Shown here: positions 7,142 to 30,265 of the stretch, piece by piece
How positions within the stretch are numbered: the first letter of the stretch is position 1
Layout: each line of letters starts with the position of its first letter
NCBI RefSeq assembly: GCF_030142155.1
Contig: NZ_CP126247.1
Location: 3,348,001 to 3,412,000 of the forward strand
From: Arthrobacter sp. zg-Y820
GTDB lineage: Bacteria > Actinomycetota > Actinomycetes > Actinomycetales > Micrococcaceae
Direction: 5' to 3'
DNA length: 64,000 nucleotides
Made by a program: the position numbers and the translations under genes
The notes under the pieces: generated by a model
Seen by the model: the letters and a program-made list of their open reading frames with translations, nothing else
Told to the model about the DNA's origin: nothing
The model's database searches: none

Positions 7142-7160
7142 CCGTCCTGCCGCAGTGCGG

Positions 7161-7628
7161 CTAGCCGCGGTACTGCGTGGAGCCCGATGCCGAACCGTAC
7201 GGGGCGGCCGTTCCATAACGGGGCCCGGCGGTGTACGGGGTGACTCCGGGACGGCCGGTGGGCACGATGACCTTGCCCAGGGGCATCAGCGAGATCGGCA
7301 CCATCTTCAGGTTGGCGATGCCCAGCGGAATCCCGATGATGCTGACGAACATTGGAATGGCCGTCAGGATGTGGCCGGCCGCGATCCAGATTCCGGCCAC
7401 CACCAGCCAGATCACGTTGCCCGCTGTGGACAGCAGCCCCGGAGCGCCGCCGCGGTCCACCACCGTGCGGCCAAACGGCCAAAAGGCGTAGGCCGCGATC
7501 CGGAAGGAAGCGATGCCGAAAGGGATCGTAACGATCAGCAGGCAGCAGACGATGCCGGCGAGCACATAGCCCAGGGCCAGCCAGATGCCGCCGAACAGGA
7601 GCCAGATGACGTTCAGGATGAGGTTCAT
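7161..7628 (-). CDS. YccF-domain membrane protein
   Basis: A 155-residue integral membrane protein of the YccF (DUF307) family: two copies of the motif built around 'NVIWLLFGGIW' and 'NVIWLVVAGIW', each followed by further hydrophobic segments, giving about four membrane helices. The C-terminal 30 residues are Gly/Tyr/Pro-rich and probably cytosolic. Function in the family is unknown. The ATG at 7628 begins the first helix; ribosome site is weak. The gene is single and converges on the PBP gene. Confidence 0.8.
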   Translation of the reverse strand: MNLILNVIWLLFGGIWLALGYVLAGIVCCLLIVTIPFGIASFRIAAYAFWPFGRTVVDRGGAPGLLSTAGNVIWLVVAGIWIAAGHILTAIPMFVSIIGIPLGIANLKMVPISLMPLGKVIVPTGRPGVTPYTAGPRYGTAAPYGSASGSTQYRG

Positions 7629-7721
7629 CGTTCCAGTCTGGTGCACCGCGCCCCGCGGCACCATGTCCCGGCGGTACCCGGGGTTTCCGGCGGAGCGGAT
7701 GGCGGCAACTAGACTGAGGGC

Positions 7722-8195
7722 ATGTTGCCAATCAAAGATGATGCCGGAGCACCCGCCGAACTGACCGCCAACCAGTGCTGGGACTACATTCGCAAAGCGG
7801 AGATCGGCCGGCTGGCCGTGGTATCCGACCTGCAGCCCGAGATCTTTCCCATCAACTTCGTCGTGGACCGCGGATCGGTGGTTTTCCGCACCGCGGCGGG
7901 GACGAAACTTGCCGCTGCCCTCGACGGCGGCGCCGTCGCGTTCGAAGTCGACGGATACGACGATCGCCTCGGGTTCGCATGGAGCGTCGTCCTGAAGGGC
8001 AGCGCCGTGCAGCTGGAGAGCATCGAAGACATCCTGGCCTCCGAGGATCTGCCCCTGTTCCCCTGGCAGAGCGGGGAGAAGAACCATTTCGTGCGGATCG
8101 AACCGGCGCAGACCAGCGGGCGCAGCTTCTCGATCAACACCGCGGCCCGCCGCCATTACCTGCGCGGCGCCAAGCCGCTGCCGTCAATCGAGTAA
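7722..8195 (+). CDS. Pyridoxamine 5'-phosphate oxidase-like FMN-binding protein
   Basis: A 157-residue split-barrel flavin/nucleotide-binding protein. It shows the family's opening helix (CWDYIRKAEIGRLAVV), the strand pair 'PINFVVDRGSVVFRTAAGTKLAAA' and 'VAFEVDGYD....GFAWSVVLKG', which form the FMN or F420 pocket. Substrate is unknown; relatives are often annotated as PNPOx-like without enzymatic proof. TAGACT ends six bases before the ATG, so translation is probably leaderless. The next gene starts seven bases after its stop and is likely cotranscribed. Confidence 0.82.
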   Translation: MLPIKDDAGAPAELTANQCWDYIRKAEIGRLAVVSDLQPEIFPINFVVDRGSVVFRTAAGTKLAAALDGGAVAFEVDGYDDRLGFAWSVVLKGSAVQLESIEDILASEDLPLFPWQSGEKNHFVRIEPAQTSGRSFSINTAARRHYLRGAKPLPSIE

Positions 8196-8202
8196 GGATC
8201 CC

Positions 8203-8766
8203 GTGAGCAGTACCGAGAACAGCAGCGCACCCCTCATCCGCTTCAGTGACTTGCCGTCCGCCCTGTGGGGGAAAAACAACGGCAGGGTCAAGGAAGTGGC
8301 CTCCGGCAACGGCTGGCGGCTGAGCCTGGCCACGGTCGAAAAGCCGGGGCCCTTCACGCCCTTCCCCGGCAGGGACCGCATTACCGTTCCGGTGGAGGGC
8401 GAGCTTCTGGTGCTGACCGTCGACGGCACCGAACACGGCATGGAGAAGTTCCGTCCATTCCGGTATTCCGGCGACTCCACCACCGACGCGGCGCTGCCCA
8501 CCGGGCCGGTGACAGTGCTGAACACGGTCGTCGACCGGACCACGACGGGTGCCTCAGTGATGGTGGCCGAGCTCTCCAAGAAGAATCCGCAGACCATCGG
8601 TGAGGGGCAGTTCGTGGTGCTGCTGCACGGCAACGCCGCGGTCACCGCCGCAGACGGCACGCCGACGGCGCTGGAACCGCTGGACACCGTGGCCGGAAAC
8701 GCCGGACGGCCGGCCGTGCTGGGACGCGGCTTCGCCGCCATCGTCTCGTTCTACGACCTGGACTAG
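8203..8766 (+). CDS. HutD/Ves-family cupin protein
   Basis: A 187-residue protein of the HutD (Ves) double-cupin family. The diagnostic stretch 'WRLSLATVEKPGPFTPFPGRD' lies about residues 40-60, followed by a beta-rich fold. HutD is linked to histidine utilisation in proteobacteria and Ves to cold growth, but its molecular role is not known, and no hut genes are seen here. The GTG at 8203 follows AAGGA by a usual spacing and starts seven bases after the PNPOx-like gene, so the two form a pair that ends at the terminator at 8798. Confidence 0.75.
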   Translation: MSSTENSSAPLIRFSDLPSALWGKNNGRVKEVASGNGWRLSLATVEKPGPFTPFPGRDRITVPVEGELLVLTVDGTEHGMEKFRPFRYSGDSTTDAALPTGPVTVLNTVVDRTTTGASVMVAELSKKNPQTIGEGQFVVLLHGNAAVTAADGTPTALEPLDTVAGNAGRPAVLGRGFAAIVSFYDLD

Positions 8767-8797
8767 GGACACATCACCGGCATGTGCCGGGAGCGCA

Positions 8798-8843
8798 AAA
8801 AGGCGCCTGCTTCCCCTGAATTTCGGGGAGGCAGGCGCCTTTT
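8798..8843. terminator. Bidirectional intrinsic terminator
   Basis: A 19-bp inverted repeat with one mismatch and an 8-base loop. The left arm begins AAAAGGCGCCTGC and the right arm ends GCAGGCGCCTTTT, so both strands end the stem in a T-run. It lies between the convergent HutD-like and DEAD-box genes. Confidence 0.88.
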
Positions 8844-8860
8844 GTCTTTACTACTGAGCG

Positions 8861-10486
8861 CTAGCGCGAACGGCGTTCGTTCGAGGCCGGAGCGGTGGCG
8901 CGGCGGGGGCCGGCGCCGCGTGCGGGGCGCCCGGCGCCCGAAGGCGCAGAGCTGCGGCCGCCCGCTGCGGGGCGTCCGCCGCCGGCGGGAGCAACATCTC
9001 CGGCACGCTGTCCGGTGGCCGGACGGCGGTTGCGGCCCTGCGCGGTGGAAGCAGCAGCTGCGCCGCGGCGTCCGTCCTGTGAGCGCTGGGCGCGGGGTGC
9101 CTCGGGCGTGAAATCGTTGCGGTCACGCTCGCTGCGGTCCGTGCGTTCCGCCGAGACGCGTCCGCGTCCGCCGGATCCGCCCCGGCCGCCGGCACGGGGC
9201 GTGGCGGTGGAGCGGGCGGCGCGCTTGCGCTGGGCGTTTGCACCGGTCGACCGGCCGCCGCCCTGCTGAGGCGACTTCGACGCGAGCTGGGCGGCGCGCA
9301 CATGCGGCTCCACAGCAGCGGCGCGGTCGCCGATCAGCTTGGCGATGGACGGAGAATTGTGGGAGACCTTCTCGATGGAGACGTCAACACCGGCAGCCTT
9401 CATCAGCTTGGAGACTTCGCTCTTCTGCTCCGGGAGGGTCAGCGTCACGACGGTTCCGCTGGATCCGGCACGGGCCGTACGGCCCGAGCGGTGCAGATAT
9501 GCCTTGTGCTCCGTGGGCGGGTCGATGTGAACGACCAGCTCGACGTCGTCCACGTGGACGCCGCGGGCGGCGACGTCGGTGGCAACCAGGACGCGCACGT
9601 CGCCGGAGGAGAATTCCGCGAGGTTCCGGTCGCGGGCGTTCTGCGACAGGTTGCCGTGCAGGTCAACGGTGGGGATGCCGCTGTCCGTCAGGTACTTGGC
9701 CATCTTGCGGGCGTGGTGCTTGGTGCGCATGAACATGATGCGGCGGCCCTGGCCGGAGGCCAGTTCCTTGACCAGCAGCTTCTTGGCCGTCTGGTCCTGG
9801 ACCAGCAGGACGTGGTGCTCCATCGTGGTGACCGCGGCCTGCGGATCGTCCACGGAGTGCGTCAGCGGGTTGGACAGGTAGCGGCGGACCAGCTTGTCGA
9901 CGCCGTTGTCCAGGGTGGCCGAGAACAGCATCCGCTGTCCCTTTTCCGGAGTGCGGTCCAGCAGACGCTGGACAACCGGCAGGAATCCGAGATCAGCCAT
10001 GTGGTCGGCTTCATCGAGCACAGTGATTTCAATGGATTCCAGGCTGATGACCTTCTGCTTCATGAGGTCTTCAAGCCGGCCGGGGCAGGCAATGACAATG
10101 TCAACGCCGGCCTTGAGGGCCTTTTCCTGGCGCTGCTGGGACACGCCGCCGTAGATAACGGTGGTGCTCAGGCCCAGTTCCTTCGCGAGAGGCTCAATCA
10201 CGTTGTTGATCTGCGTGGCCAGTTCGCGGGTGGGTGCCAGGACCAGGCCCAGCGGGCGGTTGGGCTTGCGGCGGTAGGCTGCTTCGGCCTCGGCCAGCCG
10301 GGTGACCAGCGGCAGCGAGAAAGCGAGAGTCTTGCCTGAGCCGGTACGGCCCCGGCCCAGTACGTCGCGGCCCTTGAGGGTATCGGGAAGTGTTTCAACC
10401 TGAATCGGGAATGCTTCGTCAATTCCGGAAGCGGAGAGGGCTGAAACGAGGACCTTGGGTACGCCAAGGGCAGCAAAAGTAGTCAT
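8861..10486 (-). CDS. DEAD-box ATP-dependent RNA helicase
   Basis: RNA helicase of 541 residues, probably acting in ribosome assembly or mRNA unwinding at low temperature (family knowledge). Motifs in order: the Q-motif region, GRTGSGKT (motif I), PTRELA, DEAD in 'VLDEADHMADLG', SAT, and HRSGRTARAG (motif VI). The last ~160 residues are a low-complexity Arg/Gly/Ala/Pro-rich tail, typical of RNA-binding disorder in actinobacterial DEAD-box proteins. I start at the ATG for MTTFAALG, the usual N-terminus of this family; an upstream in-frame start would add unrelated residues. No clear ribosome site is visible at 10486. A leader of about 185 bases precedes it. Confidence 0.9.
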   Translation of the reverse strand: MTTFAALGVPKVLVSALSASGIDEAFPIQVETLPDTLKGRDVLGRGRTGSGKTLAFSLPLVTRLAEAEAAYRRKPNRPLGLVLAPTRELATQINNVIEPLAKELGLSTTVIYGGVSQQRQEKALKAGVDIVIACPGRLEDLMKQKVISLESIEITVLDEADHMADLGFLPVVQRLLDRTPEKGQRMLFSATLDNGVDKLVRRYLSNPLTHSVDDPQAAVTTMEHHVLLVQDQTAKKLLVKELASGQGRRIMFMRTKHHARKMAKYLTDSGIPTVDLHGNLSQNARDRNLAEFSSGDVRVLVATDVAARGVHVDDVELVVHIDPPTEHKAYLHRSGRTARAGSSGTVVTLTLPEQKSEVSKLMKAAGVDVSIEKVSHNSPSIAKLIGDRAAAVEPHVRAAQLASKSPQQGGGRSTGANAQRKRAARSTATPRAGGRGGSGGRGRVSAERTDRSERDRNDFTPEAPRAQRSQDGRRGAAAASTAQGRNRRPATGQRAGDVAPAGGGRPAAGGRSSAPSGAGRPARGAGPRRATAPASNERRSR

Positions 10487-21866: not shown

Positions 21867-22388
21867 ATGTACCGAATCATGACGGTCTGCACCGGCAACA
21901 TCTGCCGCTCACCGATGGCCCAGTTCTGCCTCGCCCGCGCTTTCGACGACGCCGGGCTGGGGTCGGAGGTCACCGTCGATTCCACCGGCGTCACCGGATG
22001 GGAGGCCGGGCGCCCGATGGATGACCGCACCTTCGCGGAGCTGGCCGGCCACGGATTTGCGCCCCAGGAACTCGCTCCCTTCCGGGCGCGTGCCTTCACC
22101 GCTGACGACTTTGCGCACCGGGACCTGATCCTGGCGATGGATTACGGACACCTGCTGGAGCTGCAGGACCGGGCGGGCAGCGCCCGGGACCGCGGAAAAG
22201 TGCGGATGATCCGCAGCTTCGATCCCGCCTCGGCCGGCCTGCCGCCGGAAAAACAGGGCATCGACGACCCCTGGTACGGCGACATGAGCGACTTCGATTC
22301 CTCCTACGCCCTGATCCAGGCGTCGGTGCCGGGCGTGGTGGAATACGTCCGCGCCGCCCTGGACGCCGCCGGGTCCGCCGACCAGTGA
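21867..22388 (+). CDS. Low-molecular-weight protein-tyrosine phosphatase
   Basis: A 173-residue cysteine phosphatase. The P-loop CX5R is C8-TGNIC-R14-S at the N-terminus, and the general-acid Asp lies in 'GIDDPWYGDMSDF' near residue 133. The acidic and aromatic surroundings fit the LMW-PTP family of actinobacteria, whose targets include signalling and polysaccharide-export kinases. TAGGCT ends six bases before the ATG (leaderless). Its TGA overlaps the GTG of the kinase-PabB gene by four bases, so the two are translationally coupled. Confidence 0.93.
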   Translation: MYRIMTVCTGNICRSPMAQFCLARAFDDAGLGSEVTVDSTGVTGWEAGRPMDDRTFAELAGHGFAPQELAPFRARAFTADDFAHRDLILAMDYGHLLELQDRAGSARDRGKVRMIRSFDPASAGLPPEKQGIDDPWYGDMSDFDSSYALIQASVPGVVEYVRAALDAAGSADQ

Positions 22389-24550
22389 CGGGTCCCGCCG
22401 CGGCCGGCACTACGGCCGGCGCCGCCGCCCTGCCCGTCCTCATCGCGGTCGACGGCTTGTCCGGCGCCGGCAAGACCACCCTCGCCGTCGAACTTGCGGC
22501 AGCACTGCGCGCCCACCACTCGGTCTCGCTGTTCCATCTGGAGGATCTGTACCCCGGATGGGACGGGCTGGCGGCCGGGATCGCCGCCTTCCGCGAGCAC
22601 GTTGCCGTGCCGCTGGCCGCCGGCCGGACCGCCCGGTGGCGGGCCTGGGACTGGGCAGCCGGCGAGTACGGCGAGATCCGCAGCACGGCACCGGCCGACA
22701 TCGTCATCTTTGAAGGAGTCGGCGCCTCCAGCGCCGGCGTGCGGGACCTGCTCGACGCCGCCGTCTGGGTCTCCGCGCCGACCCATCTGCGCCGGGAGCG
22801 TGCGCTGGCCCGCGACGGCGACACCTACGCCCCGCACTGGGAGCGGTGGGCCGCGCAGGAACGCGCCTGGACGGCCGGTGATCCGGCCGCTGCCGCCGCC
22901 GACATCCGAGTGGACCGGCAGCACCTTCACGGGGAGCCGGTTGCCGCCGCAGCCTTTGTCCTGCGCGCGCTCGGCGAACTGCAGGTGCCCCGGCTCCAAT
23001 CCGGCTGGCCGGGTGCCAACGCTGCGGCCGGCACCGTGCGGGTGGACCGGCTGGACACCTGGATCGCGCCCGAGCGGCTCTTCGCCAGCCTTTATGCCGA
23101 CGCACCGCGGGCGGTCTGGCTGGACAGCTCCAGTGCGGCAGCACCGTCGGGGACCACCGAAGTGTCCGGCGCAGTGTCCGGAGCCGCACAGGTCGCGGCC
23201 CGCAGCCGGTACAGCATCATGGCCGACGACGGCGGTCCGCTCGGCCGCTACGCGGAGCACCGGAGCGGCATCACCACCGTCGTGTCGGGACCCGTGACGG
23301 CCTTGCACCGCGGTCCGTTTTTCCCCTGGCTGGATTCGGTCTGGGGCCGGCCGCGCGCCACGGTCAGCGCCGATTATCCGTGCGGATTTGCGCTGGGCTG
23401 GCTGGGTTTCCTGGGGTATGAGCTCAAGCGGGAAACCGGCGGCACCGACATCCCCCTGCCGCCCGGGGCAGCACCGGACGCCGCCCTGATCTTCGCCGGC
23501 CGCGCGGTGGTCCTGGACCACGAGCAGGAGTGCCTCTATGTCCTGACCCTGGCGGATCCGCTGGCCCCGGCCCCCTCGGATCCGGGGAACGGCGGTGACA
23601 GCGACGACGGCGGCGGCGGCGGCGGCGGGTGGACGGCTCAGGTGAAACGCGCCGTGGAAACCGCCGCCCAGAAACCGCCCGCTCCGGACCTGCCCGCTCC
23701 GGCGCGGTTTGCCGTGCGCGACAGCCGGGACGCGTATCTGGCCAAGGTCCGCGCCGCGCAGCAGGAGATCGGCAACGGAAACTCCTATGAGGTCTGCCTG
23801 ACCACCTCGCTGACCGCGCAGCTGCCCGCCCCGCCGGCCGGCGGGGAGGTGCTGGCCCTGTATCGGGCGCTGCGGCGGCGCAGCCCCGCTCCGTTCGCTT
23901 CCCTGCTGCGGTTCGGCAGCTTCTGCCTGGCCGGAACGTCACCGGAGCGGTTCCTCGCCCTGGACGTGCCGGGACGGATCCGCGCGGAACCCATCAAGGG
24001 CACCCGGCCGCGCGGAGCCACCGCGGCGGAAGACCGGAGGCTGGAGGCGGATTTGGTGTCCTCGCTGAAGGACCGGGCGGAGAACGTCATGATCGTTGAC
24101 CTGCTGCGCAACGACCTGTCCCATTGCGCCGTTCCGGGGTCCGTCACCGTTCCCCGGCTGTGCGCCGTGGAAAGCTACGCCACCGTCCATCAGCTGGTCA
24201 GCACCGTGGACGCCCGGCTGCGCCCCGGCGCGTCCCGGGCCGAAGCCGTTGCCGCGGCGTTCCCGCCGGGATCGATGACCGGCGCCCCGAAGATCAGCAC
24301 CATGGCCATCCTGGACCGGCTGGAGGGCGCCCCGCGCGGTGCCTATTCCGGCGTCGTCGGCTGGTTCTCCCTGACCGGGGCCGCGGATCTGTCGGTGGTG
24401 ATCCGCACGCTGGAAATCCAGGGCACGGCCCTGACCCTCGGGGTGGGCGGCGCCGTCACTGCGGATTCGGATCCCGCGGCCGAGTGGGAGGAGATCCGGG
24501 CCAAGGCGTTCGGTGTCCTCAGCGCCTTGGGATCCCGGTTCCCGGACTAG
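22385..24550 (+). CDS. Fusion: P-loop kinase-like domain plus aminodeoxychorismate synthase component I
   Basis: A 721-residue bifunctional-looking protein. Residues 1-210 form a P-loop domain with Walker A G24-LSGAGK-T31 and a uridine-kinase-like arrangement ('FHLEDLYPGWDGL', 'DIVIFEGVGAS'). From about residue 215 it is a chorismate-utilising PabB/TrpE-type enzyme ('SYEVCLTTSLTAQL', 'NVMIVDLLRNDLS', 'GSMTGAPKISTM'). The motif PIKGT at about 536-540 carries the Lys that marks PabB; anthranilate synthases have PIAGT. This makes 4-amino-4-deoxychorismate for folate, or a related product. The amidotransferase PabA is not in the window. A Gly-rich linker lies near residue 405. GTG start, coupled to the phosphatase gene. 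Confidence 0.88.
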   Translation: MTGPAAAGTTAGAAALPVLIAVDGLSGAGKTTLAVELAAALRAHHSVSLFHLEDLYPGWDGLAAGIAAFREHVAVPLAAGRTARWRAWDWAAGEYGEIRSTAPADIVIFEGVGASSAGVRDLLDAAVWVSAPTHLRRERALARDGDTYAPHWERWAAQERAWTAGDPAAAAADIRVDRQHLHGEPVAAAAFVLRALGELQVPRLQSGWPGANAAAGTVRVDRLDTWIAPERLFASLYADAPRAVWLDSSSAAAPSGTTEVSGAVSGAAQVAARSRYSIMADDGGPLGRYAEHRSGITTVVSGPVTALHRGPFFPWLDSVWGRPRATVSADYPCGFALGWLGFLGYELKRETGGTDIPLPPGAAPDAALIFAGRAVVLDHEQECLYVLTLADPLAPAPSDPGNGGDSDDGGGGGGGWTAQVKRAVETAAQKPPAPDLPAPARFAVRDSRDAYLAKVRAAQQEIGNGNSYEVCLTTSLTAQLPAPPAGGEVLALYRALRRRSPAPFASLLRFGSFCLAGTSPERFLALDVPGRIRAEPIKGTRPRGATAAEDRRLEADLVSSLKDRAENVMIVDLLRNDLSHCAVPGSVTVPRLCAVESYATVHQLVSTVDARLRPGASRAEAVAAAFPPGSMTGAPKISTMAILDRLEGAPRGAYSGVVGWFSLTGAADLSVVIRTLEIQGTALTLGVGGAVTADSDPAAEWEEIRAKAFGVLSALGSRFPD

Positions 24551-26026
24551 CTACTGCAGCGTGGCGGTGAGCCGGCAGACGTTGTCCACGTAGCGCTGCC
24601 AGACGGGCCGGCCCACCCAGTCCGAGAGCAGCAGTTCCCGGGACATGGAACGGTAGGTGTCCTCGATCCGTCGTGTCTTGGCCACGATGTCGCCGTCGAA
24701 CATCATGATCGACACTTCCAGGTTCAGGGAGAAGGACCGCATGTCCATGTTCGAGGAGCCGAGCACCGTCACCTCGTTGTCGATGGTGAAATGCTTGGCG
24801 TGGAGAACCAGCGGCTTCGGGTAAAGGTAGATCCGGATGCCGGCGCGCAGCAGCGCCTCGTAGTAGGACCGCTGGGCATGGTCCACCAGGAACTGGTCTC
24901 CCTTCTCGGAGACGAACAGCTCCACCTGCACGCCGCGCTGGGCCGCCGTCGTAATCGCGTACAGCAGCGAATCGTCCGGGACGAAGTAGGGGCTGGTGAT
25001 GGAAATGCGGTCCGACGCCGAATACATCAGGGAGGTGAAGAGGCGAAGGTTGTTTTCCGTCGTGAAGCCGGGCCCGCTGGGCACCACCTGGCAGGTGACA
25101 TCGCCGGGATGCGTGGTCCACTCGTAGAGGCTTAGTTCGCGCTCCAGGTTCTCATCGGTTTCCGCGTTCCAGTCCGTGGCAAACACCACGTTGATCTCAT
25201 CGATGACCGGCCCCTCCACGCGCGCCATCAGCTCCACCCATCTGCGGCCCGATCTATGGTTGCGGCGCTTGCGGTAGGACGCCTCCACCATGTTCTGCGA
25301 TCCGGTGTAGGCCACCAGCCCGTCCACCACCAGGATTTTCCGGTGGTTGCGCAGGTCCGGGCGGCGCCACTGGCCGCGGGCCGGCAGGATGGGCAGCATC
25401 CGCTTCCACTGGATCTCGCTGCTGCGCAGTTCCCGCAGCAGCGTCCGGTAGCCCTTCACCCGCAGCGTGCCGATGTGGTCGAACAGCAGGCGCACCCGCA
25501 CGCCGCGGGCCGCCGCTTCCTTCAGCGCAGCAAAGAAGTCCCGGGTGACGTCGTCGTAGCTCATGATGTAAAACTCGACGTGCACGTAATCCCGCGCGGT
25601 GCGGACCAGGTCGGTCATCTCCCGGATTGACTCGTTGTAGTCCCGCTGCAGATCCACTTTGTTGCCGTCCAGGCTCGGAAACGATCCGAGCCTGCGGTTC
25701 AGCTCGGTCGCGGAGACTACCCATTCCGGACCGGAATACCGGCTGCCTTCGGCCTCGAGCTCGCGGGTGTTCTCACGCACGGCCCGGTTGATTTCAGCTT
25801 GGCGCTTGACCCGGTGTTCGGAGAGCCGGAAATTGCCGAACAGCAGGAACAGGATGATTCCGGGTACCGGAAGGAAGAAAATGCACAGCAGCCAAGCCAT
25901 GGCCGTGGTGGGCCGCCGGTTGCCGGGGACCACGCCCAGCGCAACAATCCGGATTGCGTAGTCGAGGACGGTCAGTGCGGTGACAATCCAGACGGGAAGC
26001 GTTGTCCCGGTTAATGCCACCCACAC
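24551..26026 (-). CDS. cls: Cardiolipin synthase (phospholipase D family)
   Basis: A 491-residue inner-membrane enzyme that joins phosphatidyl groups to form cardiolipin. Two N-terminal transmembrane helices (PLDc_N) are followed by two HKD catalytic motifs: H-R-K-x4-D in 'NHRKILVVDG' near residue 227 and H-A-K-x4-D in 'LHAKHFTID' near 406. The spacing and the 'GSQNM' / 'GSSNMD' partners are those of bacterial Cls. Start is the GTG at 26026 with GGGAG six bases upstream. It is encoded against the flanking folate-type genes and appears to be a single gene. Confidence 0.93.
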   Translation of the reverse strand: MWVALTGTTLPVWIVTALTVLDYAIRIVALGVVPGNRRPTTAMAWLLCIFFLPVPGIILFLLFGNFRLSEHRVKRQAEINRAVRENTRELEAEGSRYSGPEWVVSATELNRRLGSFPSLDGNKVDLQRDYNESIREMTDLVRTARDYVHVEFYIMSYDDVTRDFFAALKEAAARGVRVRLLFDHIGTLRVKGYRTLLRELRSSEIQWKRMLPILPARGQWRRPDLRNHRKILVVDGLVAYTGSQNMVEASYRKRRNHRSGRRWVELMARVEGPVIDEINVVFATDWNAETDENLERELSLYEWTTHPGDVTCQVVPSGPGFTTENNLRLFTSLMYSASDRISITSPYFVPDDSLLYAITTAAQRGVQVELFVSEKGDQFLVDHAQRSYYEALLRAGIRIYLYPKPLVLHAKHFTIDNEVTVLGSSNMDMRSFSLNLEVSIMMFDGDIVAKTRRIEDTYRSMSRELLLSDWVGRPVWQRYVDNVCRLTATLQ

Positions 26027-26094: not shown

Positions 26095-26979
26095 ATGACT
26101 GTTCTGGTATTTCTGGACCCTGGATTCCCCGAAGGCCGCCTTGCTGACGCTTCCGAACCGCAGCTGATGGCCACTGACCTCGGCGCCACCCGCGGCGACG
26201 GCATCTTTGAATCGATGCTTGCCGTCGACGGCAAGCCCCGCAAAATGGCCGCGCACCTGGACCGGCTGGCCTCGTCGGCGCAGGCCCTGGACCTTGTGCC
26301 GCCGGCCCGGGACGCGTGGGAACGTGCGGTGGCCACCGCGCTCGCCCAGCTGTTGCTGCAGGCGGGGCCGGGCGAGGCAGTGGTGAAGCTGCTGCTGACC
26401 CGCGGCGTCGAAGGGGCTGCTTCCCCCACGGCCTGGGTGGCTGCCTCCCCTCTTCCGGCCGGCTCCCGGGAACGCACTGCCGACGGGCTCGCCGTCCTGC
26501 TGCTGGACCGCGGCTACGACAGCACCCTCGCCGAACGGGCGCCGTGGCTGCTGCTCGGCGCCAAGACGCTCTCCTACGCGGTGAATATGGCGGCGCTGCG
26601 CTACGCCAAGGCCAACGGCGCCGATGACGTCATTTTCACGTCCTCGGACGGCAAGGTGCTGGAGGGGCCGACGTCGAGCGTCATCCTGGCGGTGGAGGAA
26701 GACGGGGTGAAAACGCTGCTGACCCCCGAGCTGGAGAGCGGCATCCTGCCCGGCACCACCCAGCGCGCCCTGTTCGACGCCGCCGAAGCGGCAGGCTGGG
26801 CCCGCGGGTACGGCCCGCTGGAACCGGCGCACCTGATGGAGGCCGACGCCGTGTGGCTGGTGTCCAGCATTCGCCTGCTGGCCCCGGTGACCTCCATCGA
26901 CGGAACACCGATCAGCTCATCGCCTGCCCTGACCGAGGAGCTGACCAGCCTGCTGCGCGAGGCCCTGTCGGAGGCCTGA
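26095..26979 (+). CDS. Class IV aminotransferase / aminodeoxychorismate lyase-like
   Basis: A 294-residue PLP enzyme of fold type IV. 'DLGATRGDGIFESM' near residue 28 and the Schiff-base Lys at about residue 157 ('GAKTLSYA') fit aminodeoxychorismate lyase (PabC) or branched-chain/D-amino-acid aminotransferases. The nearby PabB-type fusion makes a PabC role in p-aminobenzoate synthesis the best guess. The motif 'GKVLEGPTSSVI' binds the phosphate. TAGGCT (26083-26088) ends six bases before the ATG (leaderless). It converges on the ykoC-type gene with 14 bases between stops. Confidence 0.85.
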   Translation: MTVLVFLDPGFPEGRLADASEPQLMATDLGATRGDGIFESMLAVDGKPRKMAAHLDRLASSAQALDLVPPARDAWERAVATALAQLLLQAGPGEAVVKLLLTRGVEGAASPTAWVAASPLPAGSRERTADGLAVLLLDRGYDSTLAERAPWLLLGAKTLSYAVNMAALRYAKANGADDVIFTSSDGKVLEGPTSSVILAVEEDGVKTLLTPELESGILPGTTQRALFDAAEAAGWARGYGPLEPAHLMEADAVWLVSSIRLLAPVTSIDGTPISSSPALTEELTSLLREALSEA

Positions 26980-26993
26980 CCCGCCGACCGGGC

Positions 26994-27839
26994 CTAGGTC
27001 AGGATGAAATTGAACGTCCCGGCCAGCGCCGCGGCGGCCAGGGCGGCGCTGGCCAGCAGCACGCCGTACAGGGTCACCCACACGTCGATCCCGGTGAACG
27101 CCGAGGTCCGCGCCCAGGTCCTGTTCCCGCTGCCGAAACCGCGCGCCTCCATGGCCGCGGCGAGGCGGGTGGCGCGGCGCACCGCCTGGACCAGCAGCGC
27201 CACCGACTGGCCGCCGAAGGACCGGGCCCGGGCCAGCGCCCCGGAATCCGAACCGACGCCGCGGGCGTGCCGGGCCATGCCCAGGCTCTGCCATTCGGTA
27301 ACCAGCAGCCCGACCAGGCGCATCGCGGCCAGCGCGCCGAGCACGAACCGGTGCGGCAGCCGCAGTTTCTGGGCCAGGGCGTCCGCCAGGTCCGTGGGAT
27401 CCGTCGACACCAGCAGATAGATCCCGGGCAGGGCGATGGCCAGTCCCCGAAGCCCGATGGCAATGCCGGCGGCCACTGAATCGGAGGTGAACAGCAGCGG
27501 TCCGGCGTCCAGCAGCACGGCACCGGTCTTCTCGGCCAGCAGGGCGGTTCCGTAGGCACCGAGCAAGGCGGCCAGGACCAGCGGCCAGATGCGTTTGAGC
27601 AGGGTGAGCGGCGGGATCCGCAGCAGCGGCAGCAGGATCAGCTCGCCGGCCAGGACAATTCCGGAGCTGATCCAGTCAACGCTCACCAGCACGGCCAGCG
27701 TGAGCGCCAGGGCGGCGGCGAGCTTGGACAGCGGGTTGGCCCGCTCCAGCAACGTTCCGGCCGGACGCCGGGAGGGGTTGCGCAGATCGGTGCGCCCGGT
27801 CCGTTCGGGCGCCGTCGCCGGTTCCCCGGGCCGGCTCAC
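26994..27839 (-). CDS. ykoC: ECF transporter transmembrane (T) component, YkoC-like
   Basis: Integral membrane coupling subunit of an energy-coupling-factor importer, 281 residues. It has about five hydrophobic segments and the paired Ala-Arg-Gly motifs ('MARHARGVG' and 'AMEARGFG') in the cytoplasmic helices that dock on the ATPases. The GTG at 27839 overlaps the ATPase stop (GTGA). It is the last gene of the ykoE-ykoD-ykoC unit under the TPP riboswitch, so the transported substrate is likely the thiamine precursor hydroxymethylpyrimidine or thiamine. Confidence 0.85.
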   Translation of the reverse strand: MSRPGEPATAPERTGRTDLRNPSRRPAGTLLERANPLSKLAAALALTLAVLVSVDWISSGIVLAGELILLPLLRIPPLTLLKRIWPLVLAALLGAYGTALLAEKTGAVLLDAGPLLFTSDSVAAGIAIGLRGLAIALPGIYLLVSTDPTDLADALAQKLRLPHRFVLGALAAMRLVGLLVTEWQSLGMARHARGVGSDSGALARARSFGGQSVALLVQAVRRATRLAAAMEARGFGSGNRTWARTSAFTGIDVWVTLYGVLLASAALAAAALAGTFNFILT

Positions 27840-29353
27840 AACAGCGCTCCGGTCCGGGCGGTGCCGTGCTCCACGTGCAGGCGGTTCCCGCCCAGGGCCG
27901 CCAGGAACTCGGCGTCATGCGTCACCGCGACCACCGCGGTGCCGTCAGCTGTCAGTGTGCGGAGCAGCTCCACGAGTTCCGCCCAGGTGTTGGCATCCTG
28001 CCCGAACGTGGGTTCGTCCAGGAGCAGGACGTCCGGTTCGGTGGCGATCATCGTGGCGACCGACAGGCGGCGCTTCTCCCCGCCGGAGAGCGTGAACGGA
28101 TTGGCGTCCAGCAGTGCCGTGAGCCGCAGCCGCTCCGCCAGTGCCTGCACCAGCGCCGAGACCTCGGCCTCTGAGCGCCGGCGGGTGCGCCGCGGCCCGA
28201 ACGCCAGTTCCTCGCGCACCGTCGCGGCCAAGAACTGGTGCTCGGGTTCCTGGAAGACAGTGCCGATCCGGGTCACCAGGTCCGTGGATTTCCAGCGCCG
28301 GGGGTCGGGGCCCGCAGTTCCGGCCAGCGCGGGAGCAGCGCGCAGGGTTCCGGCCACTGGCTTCAGCAGTCCGCCCAGGGTCAGCGCCAGCGTCGATTTT
28401 CCGGCGCCGTTGGGCCCGGTGATCCCGAGCGCCGTGCCGGCCCGCAGCGTCAGGTCCACTCCGCTCACGGCCGCCGGGCCCCGCTTGGACCGTCCGACGC
28501 CCAGACCGCGGGCTTCGAGCAGGGTGGCGCCCGGAGCCCCGGCCGCCGGCCCGCCGGCCGCGGGACGGGTTCCGGGCAGCCAGACCCCGGCCGCGGCGAG
28601 CCGGGCGCGGTTGGCCGGATCGGCGAGGACCCTTGATGGCGGTCCGTCAGCGAGGATGCCGCCGTCGGCCGCCAGGACCACCACGCGGTCGACGACGTCC
28701 GCCCAGACCGCGACGCGGTGTTCCACCACGATCAGCGTGGCACCGGTGCGTTCCAGCACGCGTTCGACGGCAGCGCGCACTTCCAGCACGCCCTCCGGGT
28801 CCAGGTTGGCGGTGGGTTCGTCCAGCAGCAGCAGGCCCGGCCGCATCGCGAGCACCGAAGCCAGCGCCAGGCGCTGCTTCTCGCCTCCCGACAGGGCGGC
28901 AGTGGAATGGTGCAGCGGCACCCGGAGGCCGACGTCGTCCAGGCTGGTGCGGACCCGGTCCCAGATTTCCTCCGGCGGAACCCGAAGGTTCTCGGGACCA
29001 AAGGCCACCTCGTCACCCACCCGGGACAGCACCAGCTGGGAGTCCGGGTCCTGCAGCACCAGTCCCGCCCGGCCGCGGGCCTGCAGCGGCTGAACACCGT
29101 CCAGGGTCAGGCTGCCCTGCTGCTCCCCCGCGGCATCCGGGCCGGAGCCTTCGCCGAGGACGCCCGCGAGGGCATGCAGCAGCGTGGATTTGCCGGCACC
29201 GGAAGCGCCCAGCAGCAGGACCTTCTCCCCGGCGTCGATATCCAGTGACAGGGAGGAAAGGGCCGGGGCGGTGCGCCCGGCGTGCCGCCAGCTGAAGTCC
29301 CGGGCGCGGACCGCCACGGGGACGCCGGCGGGAACGGGGCTAGGCCCGCTCAT
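27836..29353 (-). CDS. ykoD: ECF transporter ATP-binding protein, two ABC domains fused (YkoD-like)
   Basis: A 505-residue protein with two complete ABC ATPase domains. The first has Walker A GASGAGKST, signature LSGGEKQRL and Walker B LLLLDEPTANLD; the second GPNGAGKST, LSGGEKRRL and VLLLDEPTFGQD, separated by an Ala/Gly/Pro-rich linker of about 30 residues. Fusion of the two ECF ATPases is the YkoD arrangement. The ATG at 29353 lies 14 bases inside the preceding ykoE-type gene; an upstream in-frame start has no support. It powers uptake by the T and S components. Confidence 0.9.
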   Translation of the reverse strand: MSGPSPVPAGVPVAVRARDFSWRHAGRTAPALSSLSLDIDAGEKVLLLGASGAGKSTLLHALAGVLGEGSGPDAAGEQQGSLTLDGVQPLQARGRAGLVLQDPDSQLVLSRVGDEVAFGPENLRVPPEEIWDRVRTSLDDVGLRVPLHHSTAALSGGEKQRLALASVLAMRPGLLLLDEPTANLDPEGVLEVRAAVERVLERTGATLIVVEHRVAVWADVVDRVVVLAADGGILADGPPSRVLADPANRARLAAAGVWLPGTRPAAGGPAAGAPGATLLEARGLGVGRSKRGPAAVSGVDLTLRAGTALGITGPNGAGKSTLALTLGGLLKPVAGTLRAAPALAGTAGPDPRRWKSTDLVTRIGTVFQEPEHQFLAATVREELAFGPRRTRRRSEAEVSALVQALAERLRLTALLDANPFTLSGGEKRRLSVATMIATEPDVLLLDEPTFGQDANTWAELVELLRTLTADGTAVVAVTHDAEFLAALGGNRLHVEHGTARTGALL

Positions 29354-29978
29354 GGGAGCGCCCGTCCGCTGCCCTTCCCGACGCGAAGGATGCCAGCACA
29401 CCGGTGCGGGCCAGGGCCCGGGCAGCCAGCCAGGATCCGGCACCGGCAATGACGGCGCCCGAAGCGGCGGCCAGCAGCGTGTAGAGCGCCTGCCATTGAA
29501 GCGCCCATTCCGGCTTGTACAGGATGCTTTCGCTGGCCCCCAGGAAGGCGCCCGAGACCAGCCCCGCCAGTACGGCCACCGGAAGCGTGTACCGAAGGTA
29601 GAGGAAGGCCAGGAACACCAGTTCCGCGCCGAGGCCCTGGATGAATCCGGAGAGCAGCACCGATAGGCCGAACTGCGTGCCGAGCACTCCGGACACGGCC
29701 GAGGCGAGGACCTCGCAGTAGATCGCTGCCCCGGGTTTGCGGATGATCAGCGCGCCGAGCACTCCGGCAATCAGCCATCCGCCGGTGTACAGCCCGCCCA
29801 GCGGCGGAAACGCCAGGATCAGGGCTTCCACCCCGGCGTAGCCCAGCGACCAGGCCCAGAAAATCACGCCTACGGCCACGGCCAGGACTGACGCGACGAC
29901 AATGTCGACGACCCGCCACGGGCGGCGCAGGGATTTTAACTGCCGTTGAAACTGTGGGTGGGATTTGTTCTGCTGCAT
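29340..29978 (-). CDS. ykoE: ECF transporter substrate-binding (S) component, YkoE-like
   Basis: A 212-residue membrane protein of the YkoE family, the S component of the hydroxymethylpyrimidine/thiamine importer. The family hallmarks 'DIVVASVLAVAVGVIFWAWSL', 'IIRKPGAAIYCEVLASA' and 'SGFIQGLGAELVFLAFLYLRY' are clear, with six membrane segments. The ATG at 29978 has AGGAGG seven bases upstream. That ribosome site is the 3' arm of a hairpin following a TPP riboswitch, so thiamine pyrophosphate should shut its translation. ykoD and ykoC follow. Confidence 0.92.
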   Translation of the reverse strand: MQQNKSHPQFQRQLKSLRRPWRVVDIVVASVLAVAVGVIFWAWSLGYAGVEALILAFPPLGGLYTGGWLIAGVLGALIIRKPGAAIYCEVLASAVSGVLGTQFGLSVLLSGFIQGLGAELVFLAFLYLRYTLPVAVLAGLVSGAFLGASESILYKPEWALQWQALYTLLAAASGAVIAGAGSWLAARALARTGVLASFASGRAADGRSHERA

Positions 29979-29985
29979 GAAATAA

Positions 29986-30004
29986 CCTCCTGAGGTACAG
30001 GAGG
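29986..30004 (-). promoter_or_regulatory. SD-sequestering hairpin (riboswitch expression platform)
   Basis: On the minus strand CCTCCTG-TACCT-CAGGAGG: a 7-bp perfect stem whose 3' arm is the ykoE Shine-Dalgarno sequence. It lies between the TPP aptamer and the ATG and would block ribosome binding when folded. The typical off-state platform for translational thiamine riboswitches. Confidence 0.75.
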
Positions 30005-30050
30005 GGAGGGGCCCTTCATGGCGGTTTGCCATGATGTCCCGTGAGATCTC

Positions 30051-30168
30051 GACTCCCTAGCGCCGGTACTAACCGGATCAGGTTCGAGGGTCTGCGGATG
30101 TCCGCACTCTCAGCGCCTTGTTCTGCCTGCCGGGCCTTGGGCCCGGCGGGAAGCGGCGCTCCCCTGTC
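30051..30168 (-). ncRNA. TPP riboswitch aptamer (THI element)
   Basis: Minus strand. The invariant parts are present in order: GACAGGGGAGC at the 5' end, GCTGAGAGTGC, then AACCTGATCCGG and TTAGTACC, GGCG and TAGGGAGTC at the 3' end. GAC at the start pairs with GTC at the end to close P1. The extra stem P3a is GC-rich (around 30128-30150). It controls the ykoE-ykoD-ykoC importer, about 70 bases downstream. Confidence 0.93.
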
Positions 30169-30265
30169 GTGTGTTTTGCGTTTCCCACTCTACACACGCC
30201 ACTGCCCCGGTGGGGCGGATCGGCGGGTAGGGTTAGGAAAAAGGCCTTCAACCCTAGGAGCACCC

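Follow-up and report, generated by a model that had tools for sequence, protein, structure and literature searches.

A PabB protein with a fused kinase domain in Arthrobacter sp. zg-Y820: a candidate thiamine kinase joined to an enzyme of folate synthesis

What does a P-loop kinase do on an enzyme of p-aminobenzoate synthesis? The question arises from a gene of Arthrobacter sp. zg-Y820, located in the 64,000-nucleotide stretch of contig NZ_CP126247.1 analysed here (the window), whose product joins an N-terminal kinase domain to PabB, component I of aminodeoxychorismate synthase. The original prediction described this anatomy correctly, but the question that it implied, how the kinase serves PabB, is probably the wrong one, because the kinase occurs across the class without PabB, was kept alone in one genome of the family (G131) and is found in 32 thiamine-type loci. 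We favour, with a probability of about two in three, a bifunctional protein made of a thiamine kinase yielding thiamine monophosphate (TMP) and of PabB, which arose by a single joining of neighbouring genes. In this proposal we infer the substrate, thiamine, the product, TMP, the activity retained by the fused kinase and the single fusion event. The thiamine kinase function is predicted from genomic context.

The N-terminal domain would phosphorylate salvaged thiamine to TMP, which ThiL would turn into thiamine pyrophosphate (TPP). The PabB half, together with a separately encoded TrpG/PabA-type amidotransferase, would make aminodeoxychorismate, and the nearby PabC would convert the latter to p-aminobenzoate for folate. 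The kinase and PabB genes would have been joined once, in this family, as neighbours in a region of vitamin genes. The fusion probably joined neighbouring genes, and no folate role is indicated for the kinase. If this is true, the fusion merges genes of B1 salvage and B9 synthesis and adds no new folate reaction.

Lone kinases in TPP-riboswitch operons

We searched a sample of 246 Actinomycetes-type genomes, the class sample, with the kinase domain. At E 1e-12 it matches 148 of them, including that of zg-Y820 and one further genome of its family. At 40 class-level loci (L063-L102), the kinase frame, counted from the start that we chose, spans no more than 224 aa and is followed by no PabB. At 24 loci, a TPP riboswitch, a pnuC/pnuT-type transporter gene and the kinase gene follow one another on one strand, and at eight loci the order, also on one strand, is TPP riboswitch, ykoE-ykoD-ykoC and kinase. 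As the set of named records was searched with kinases of the acI lineage, these 24 and eight loci are not independent samples. Because both types of operons occur, two unrelated transporter types are combined with one riboswitch class and one kinase.

The pnuT-type arrangement is found in named records that include Candidatus Planktophila and Nanopelagicaceae, both of the acI lineage; many of the others are actinobacterial metagenome-assembled genomes (MAGs). In family f31, which has genomes of 1.2-2.2 Mb, 20 of the 21 kinase-bearing genomes have a PnuC-type match next to the kinase and in the same orientation, as judged by eye. According to PMC5301498, four acI strains are auxotrophic for thiamine and have a THI element upstream of pnuC, the product of which is proposed to be PnuT; the same paper describes acI strains as devoid of nearly all enzymes of thiamine biosynthesis and salvage. 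Immediately 5' of the transporter gene at locus L088, the Rfam model RF00059 gives 39.1 bits (E 2.5e-6 in 401 bases), and it gives 36.6-42.1 bits at L082, L090, L091 and L103-L107. Rfam at E 0.05 did not detect the element of L089, which R1, a model that we built from 15 of these riboswitch elements with that of L089 left out, found with E 2.4e-24.

In the ykoEDC-type operons of L092 and L093, a TPP riboswitch above the gathering score (58.8 and 58.2 bits) is followed by ykoE-ykoD-ykoC, and these by the kinase gene, which with the chosen starts overlaps ykoC by about 22 nt and 10 nt, respectively. The same order is present in Curtobacterium (L157, L167 and L169, with 57.7, 58.3 and 55.4 bits), Aurantimicrobium (L165, 61.2 bits), Brevibacterium jeotgali (L163, 45.2 bits) and a Micrococcales MAG (L160, 46.6 bits). 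The structure of Bacillus subtilis YkoE has been solved with thiamine (PMC5037267).

Model R1 matches 12 of the 55 class-level kinase loci. Among the 56 named loci it matches 20, all with E below 1e-17, one further match (E 0.5) being dropped. In the set formed by the window and its family, nine of the 51 sources have strong matches, and three matches in two sources (E 0.19-0.86) were dropped; 30 of these 51 sources are 3.5-kb loci, hardly able to contain a riboswitch. We also looked for a folate partner of the lone kinase and rejected this idea, as none recurred; the neighbours outside the thiamine loci vary across the class. Many class loci are close to genes that we take to be his and rib genes, and a PnuC-type gene is some 3-13 kb distant (by eye); we read this as an old gene order, not an operon.

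The complement of thiamine enzymes leaves a place for such a kinase. ThiL was detected in 241 of the 246 class genomes, and none of the five misses is in family f31. The model of the Escherichia coli-type ThiK (PRK10271/NF007620) exceeds its cut-off in 0/246 class genomes and has no match in the zg-Y820 genome, with weak matches below the cut-off in 67 class genomes. The thiamine pyrophosphokinase domain PF04263 matches 94/246 class genomes, none of them in f31, as fragments of ~35-40 of its 113 positions (positions 6-45), mostly in frames that reach or exceed about 400 aa, which we take for SteA-like proteins. We therefore rejected these fragments as a sign of thiamine pyrophosphokinase; they are a trap for its annotation. 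PF04263 has no match in the zg-Y820 genome and is not among the Pfam matches of the fused domain. Because ThiL is widespread and neither ThiK above its cut-off nor full-length PF04263 was found, the thiamine-to-TMP kinase is unaccounted for, and the fused-type kinase domain stands where this enzyme is expected.

We lean slightly towards a broader proposal, namely that PRK06547-type proteins are unrecognised thiamine kinases of uridine-kinase fold that fill the thiamine-to-TMP gap across much of the Actinomycetes, including acI, and that are tied to PabB in Micrococcaceae-type genomes, bringing together B1 salvage and B9 synthesis. If so, a function would be given to a widespread actinobacterial kinase family, the members of which are at present annotated as uridine kinase, AAA ATPase, dephospho-CoA kinase or hypothetical protein, and the TPP supply of the thiamine-importing, thiamine-auxotrophic acI bacteria would be explained.

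The fusion gene, its family and its locus

The kinase domain (residues 18-175) scores 148.4 bits against PRK06547/NF005115, below the curated cut-off of 173; we thus regard it as a relative of this family rather than a member. Pfam PRK matches it weakly (23.6 bits, cut-off 22), and its uridine-kinase fold, already suspected in the original prediction, is borne out by a structural match that extends over the greater part of it. In all 30 fused proteins compared, G24, G27, G29, K30, E53, Y56, G58, W59, G61, W90, E110, G111, G113, R143, D144, G145, W155 and A172 are unchanged; less strict positions are T31 (29 of 30), Q158 (29), D89 (27) and R139 (19). Over 45 kinases, the invariant positions include G24 and K30 of the P-loop and others such as W59 and W90, the latter two of which, in our own reading of the alignments, fall close to what is the acceptor side of uridine kinases.

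Judged by its sequence, the C-terminal half is a PabB of the ordinary kind, the predicted component I of aminodeoxychorismate synthase. The TIGR00553 pabB model gives 328.0 bits for the fusion protein, 0.4 under the cut-off of 328.4 and thus just outside the family by this score; the chorismate-binding domain and the PIKGT lysine identify the half as PabB. This lysine, which distinguishes PabB from TrpE, is residue 538, in agreement with the original prediction, the motif starting at 536. PIKGT is present in 30/30 fused proteins and PIAGT in 0/30. The zg-Y820 genome has three chorismate-binding matches, among which the fusion gene is the PabB-type one; the best fits of the remaining two are TrpE and isochorismate synthase. 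No PabA was seen in the window, and a TrpG/PabA-type amidotransferase is encoded elsewhere in the genome (C1:18843-19400).

We next considered the fusion in a set of 149 genomes of the family, zg-Y820 included. The kinase matches 143 of them, a count that includes a weak match in G042 (2.2e-6) that is nearer to PRK07667, another kinase family; PabB, at a threshold of E 1e-65, matches 114. Both are in one open frame in at least 89 of the 149 genomes, this number being a lower bound because in G034 and G102 PabB lies just 3' of the kinase with a score below the threshold. We therefore rejected a frameshift artefact; homologues in which the two parts are always separate are likewise contradicted by this count. 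In four further genomes, the two matches are adjacent in different open frames. In one of these four, G133 (locus L057, about 7142-9336), PabB is split over two frames, so that this fusion copy is either defective or poorly sequenced. The kinase is away from any PabB match in 50 genomes, 16 of which have a PabB match elsewhere; some of the 50 are cases of contig ends or of PabB below threshold (G029, G070, G034 and G102). PabB with no kinase match is found in five genomes, which all belong to genus g13, as does G042, and G078 has neither. The lone forms that the original prediction proposed to look for do exist: lone kinases across the class, and a PabB with no kinase in g13. We conclude that the fusion is genuine and that constraint acts on both of its halves. 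A kinase-PabB fusion also appears in a record labelled Vibrio cholerae (P0049), probably a contamination or mislabel because the other named matches belong to Micrococcaceae-type genera.

In a tree of nine fused and other kinases, those of the fusions group in a single clade (0.88) within the lone kinases of the family. The lone kinase of G131 (L043) nests inside that clade, as sister to those of the window and L005 (0.78). Its locus has the phosphatase gene described below and the kinase gene, with no PabB found by tblastn at 1e-5; at 1e-65, the G131 genome gave no match to PabB. The simplest reading would be one fusion event with a later loss of the PabB half in G131, the kinase being kept; we infer the single event from a small tree.

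The features of the locus are listed in Table 1. As originally predicted, the fusion gene is coupled to a gene for a low-molecular-weight protein tyrosine phosphatase (LMW-PTP), the end of which overlaps its start by 4 nt, and a PabC-like gene that passes its lyase model begins 1.5 kb 3' of it. Immediately 5' of the kinase and in the same orientation, 21 of 29 fused loci and nine of 15 other family loci (L043, L045, L046, L048, L050, L051, L053, L054 and L056) carry an LMW-PTP gene, and none was matched in 52 class loci. LMW-PTP accompanies the kinase even without PabB. The phospholipase-D-like gene that separates pabC from the fusion gene is probably functionally unrelated to its neighbours. 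In some g13 genomes, PabB alone is found at the phospholipase-D locus.

Table 1. Features of the fusion locus, with positions in the window
Feature	Position	Strand	Evidence
LMW-PTP-like gene	21867..22388	+	PF01451, 106 bits
Fusion gene, 721 aa, GTG start	22385..24550	+	Open reading frame, no internal stops
P-loop kinase domain, residues 18-175, PRK06547 relative	22436..22909	+	PRK06547/NF005115 match
Walker A, residues 24-31	22454..22477	+	Sequence; conserved in fused proteins
Anthranilate-synthase-I N-terminal domain (Anth_synt_I_N), residues 273-386	23201..23542	+	PF04715, 29.4 bits, cut-off 23
Chorismate_bind domain, residues 448-707	23726..24505	+	PF00425, 282.8 bits, cut-off 27
PIKGT motif, residues 536-540	23990..24004	+	PIKGT in the fused proteins
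Phospholipase-D-like gene	24551..26026	-	PF13091, 140.3 bits
PabC-like aminodeoxychorismate lyase	26095..26979	+	NF005887, 297 bits, cut-off 278
ykoC-like T component of energy-coupling factor (ECF) transporter	26994..27839	-	PF02361, 89.1 bits
ykoD-like ECF double ATPase, start uncertain, listed frame overlaps ykoE	27836..29449	-	PF00005, 2 stretches
ykoE-like S component	29340..30032	-	PF09819, 125.8 bits
TPP riboswitch, upstream of ykoE	30037..30175	-	RF00059, 60.8 bits, gathering 54.3

Beyond pabC, the window itself harbours a riboswitch-ykoE-ykoD-ykoC series, which converges on pabC and the fusion gene. The lone-kinase relatives have the same convergent order, and in L044 and L045 the kinase gene directly follows ykoC. 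The kinase and ykoE are on one contig in 115 of the 131 family genomes that have both, less than 30 kb apart in 102 and less than 12 kb apart in 71. Inversion of a former ykoEDC-kinase operon would account for the present convergent layout.

Alternative explanations

Several observations weigh against a thiamine kinase. The fold is nearest to that of uridine kinases, and the riboswitch operon does not include the fused gene. The six family genomes that have no kinase match all carry ykoE, the g13 loci L200-L204 have the riboswitch and ykoEDC with no kinase, and, conversely, 12 family genomes have the kinase and no ykoE match. In the tree, the kinases of the family are weakly linked (0.31 to 0.83) to the clade associated with ykoEDC. 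The riboswitches of acI do not reach the RF00059 gathering score of 54.3, and a search at that threshold found none. With R1, no riboswitch was found near the kinase at E up to 1 in 43 of the 55 class-level loci; these blank loci show that the element is rare in the background. Seven f31 genomes have weak matches to the ThiK model, below its cut-off. Finally, a survey lists YkoEDC as a transporter of hydroxymethylpyrimidine (HMP) besides B1 (PMC6593275).

The fold would suit a uridine, cytidine or other nucleoside kinase replacing the canonical Udk, which is mostly missing in the class: the canonical uridine kinase matches six of the 246 class genomes at 1e-20 and is over the cut-off in one. 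We consider this explanation unlikely, as the 32 loci with TPP-riboswitch operons and two transporter types speak against it, and so do invariant positions that include the two tryptophans near the predicted acceptor side. The same riboswitch operons, and the listing of YkoEDC for HMP, are also compatible with a kinase that acts on another compound of the thiamine pathway, for instance HMP or the thiazole alcohol, or with one that makes TPP directly. This too we regard as rather improbable: a kinase for HMP or thiazole would be useless in acI strains as they are described in PMC5301498, and a TPP-forming one would be unnecessary given the distribution of ThiL. Nicotinamide riboside kinase paired with PnuC was our initial reading of the acI gene pair, dropped in view of the THI-element report in the same paper and of the riboswitch matches. 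We now give it very little credence, since a TPP riboswitch precedes the transporter gene in 24 loci, the transporter is read as PnuT in print (PMC5301498), and the ykoEDC operons fit only thiamine.

The maintenance of the fusion in so many genomes of the family and the proximity of pabC in the window could suggest that the kinase serves PabB, by modifying a folate or chorismate compound or by regulating PabB. The 40 class-level loci with no PabB after the kinase, G131, which appears to have kept the kinase and lost PabB, and g13, with PabB and no kinase, make such a role quite improbable. The fused domain might also be a catalytically dead or purely structural leftover, as the location of the fused gene outside the riboswitch operon would allow. 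We hold this to be very improbable, because Walker A and the active-site positions listed above are kept in the 30 fused proteins, with few exceptions (T31, D89, R139 and Q158). A thiamine kinase joined to PabB is therefore the reading that we retain.

Comparison with known systems

Thiamine kinase activity itself is known; what would be new is the protein family proposed for it, and the fusion. In the literature searched, which left out most subscription papers, we found no mention of PRK06547, no description of a PRK06547-type family as thiamine kinase and no paper combining 'uridine kinase' and 'aminodeoxychorismate'. The proposed activity on thiamine is shared with ThiK (PRK10271) and thiamine pyrophosphokinase (PF04263), from which the window kinase differs by its uridine-kinase fold. 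It has the fold and P-loop in common with the uridine/cytidine kinases (Udk, UCK1/2) but differs from them in that its lone relatives are in TPP-riboswitch operons; the uridine kinase model PRK05480 (NF004018) has no match at 1e-20 in the zg-Y820 genome, so that the kinase does not belong to that family. The difference from the human nicotinamide riboside kinase NRK1 is one of context, thiamine rather than NAD. Another close family is PRK06547 (NF005115, 'hypothetical protein' in NCBIfam), with which the window kinase aligns over model positions 16-169 of 172; the Curtobacterium relative L157, from a TPP-ykoEDC operon, passes this model (189.7 bits, cut-off 173). Unlike this family model, the domain of the window is joined to PabB. 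The C-terminal half, for its part, has the PIKGT motif and the chorismate-binding domain of PabB (TIGR00553), and the fusion protein differs from that family by its score, 0.4 bit short, and by its N-terminal kinase.
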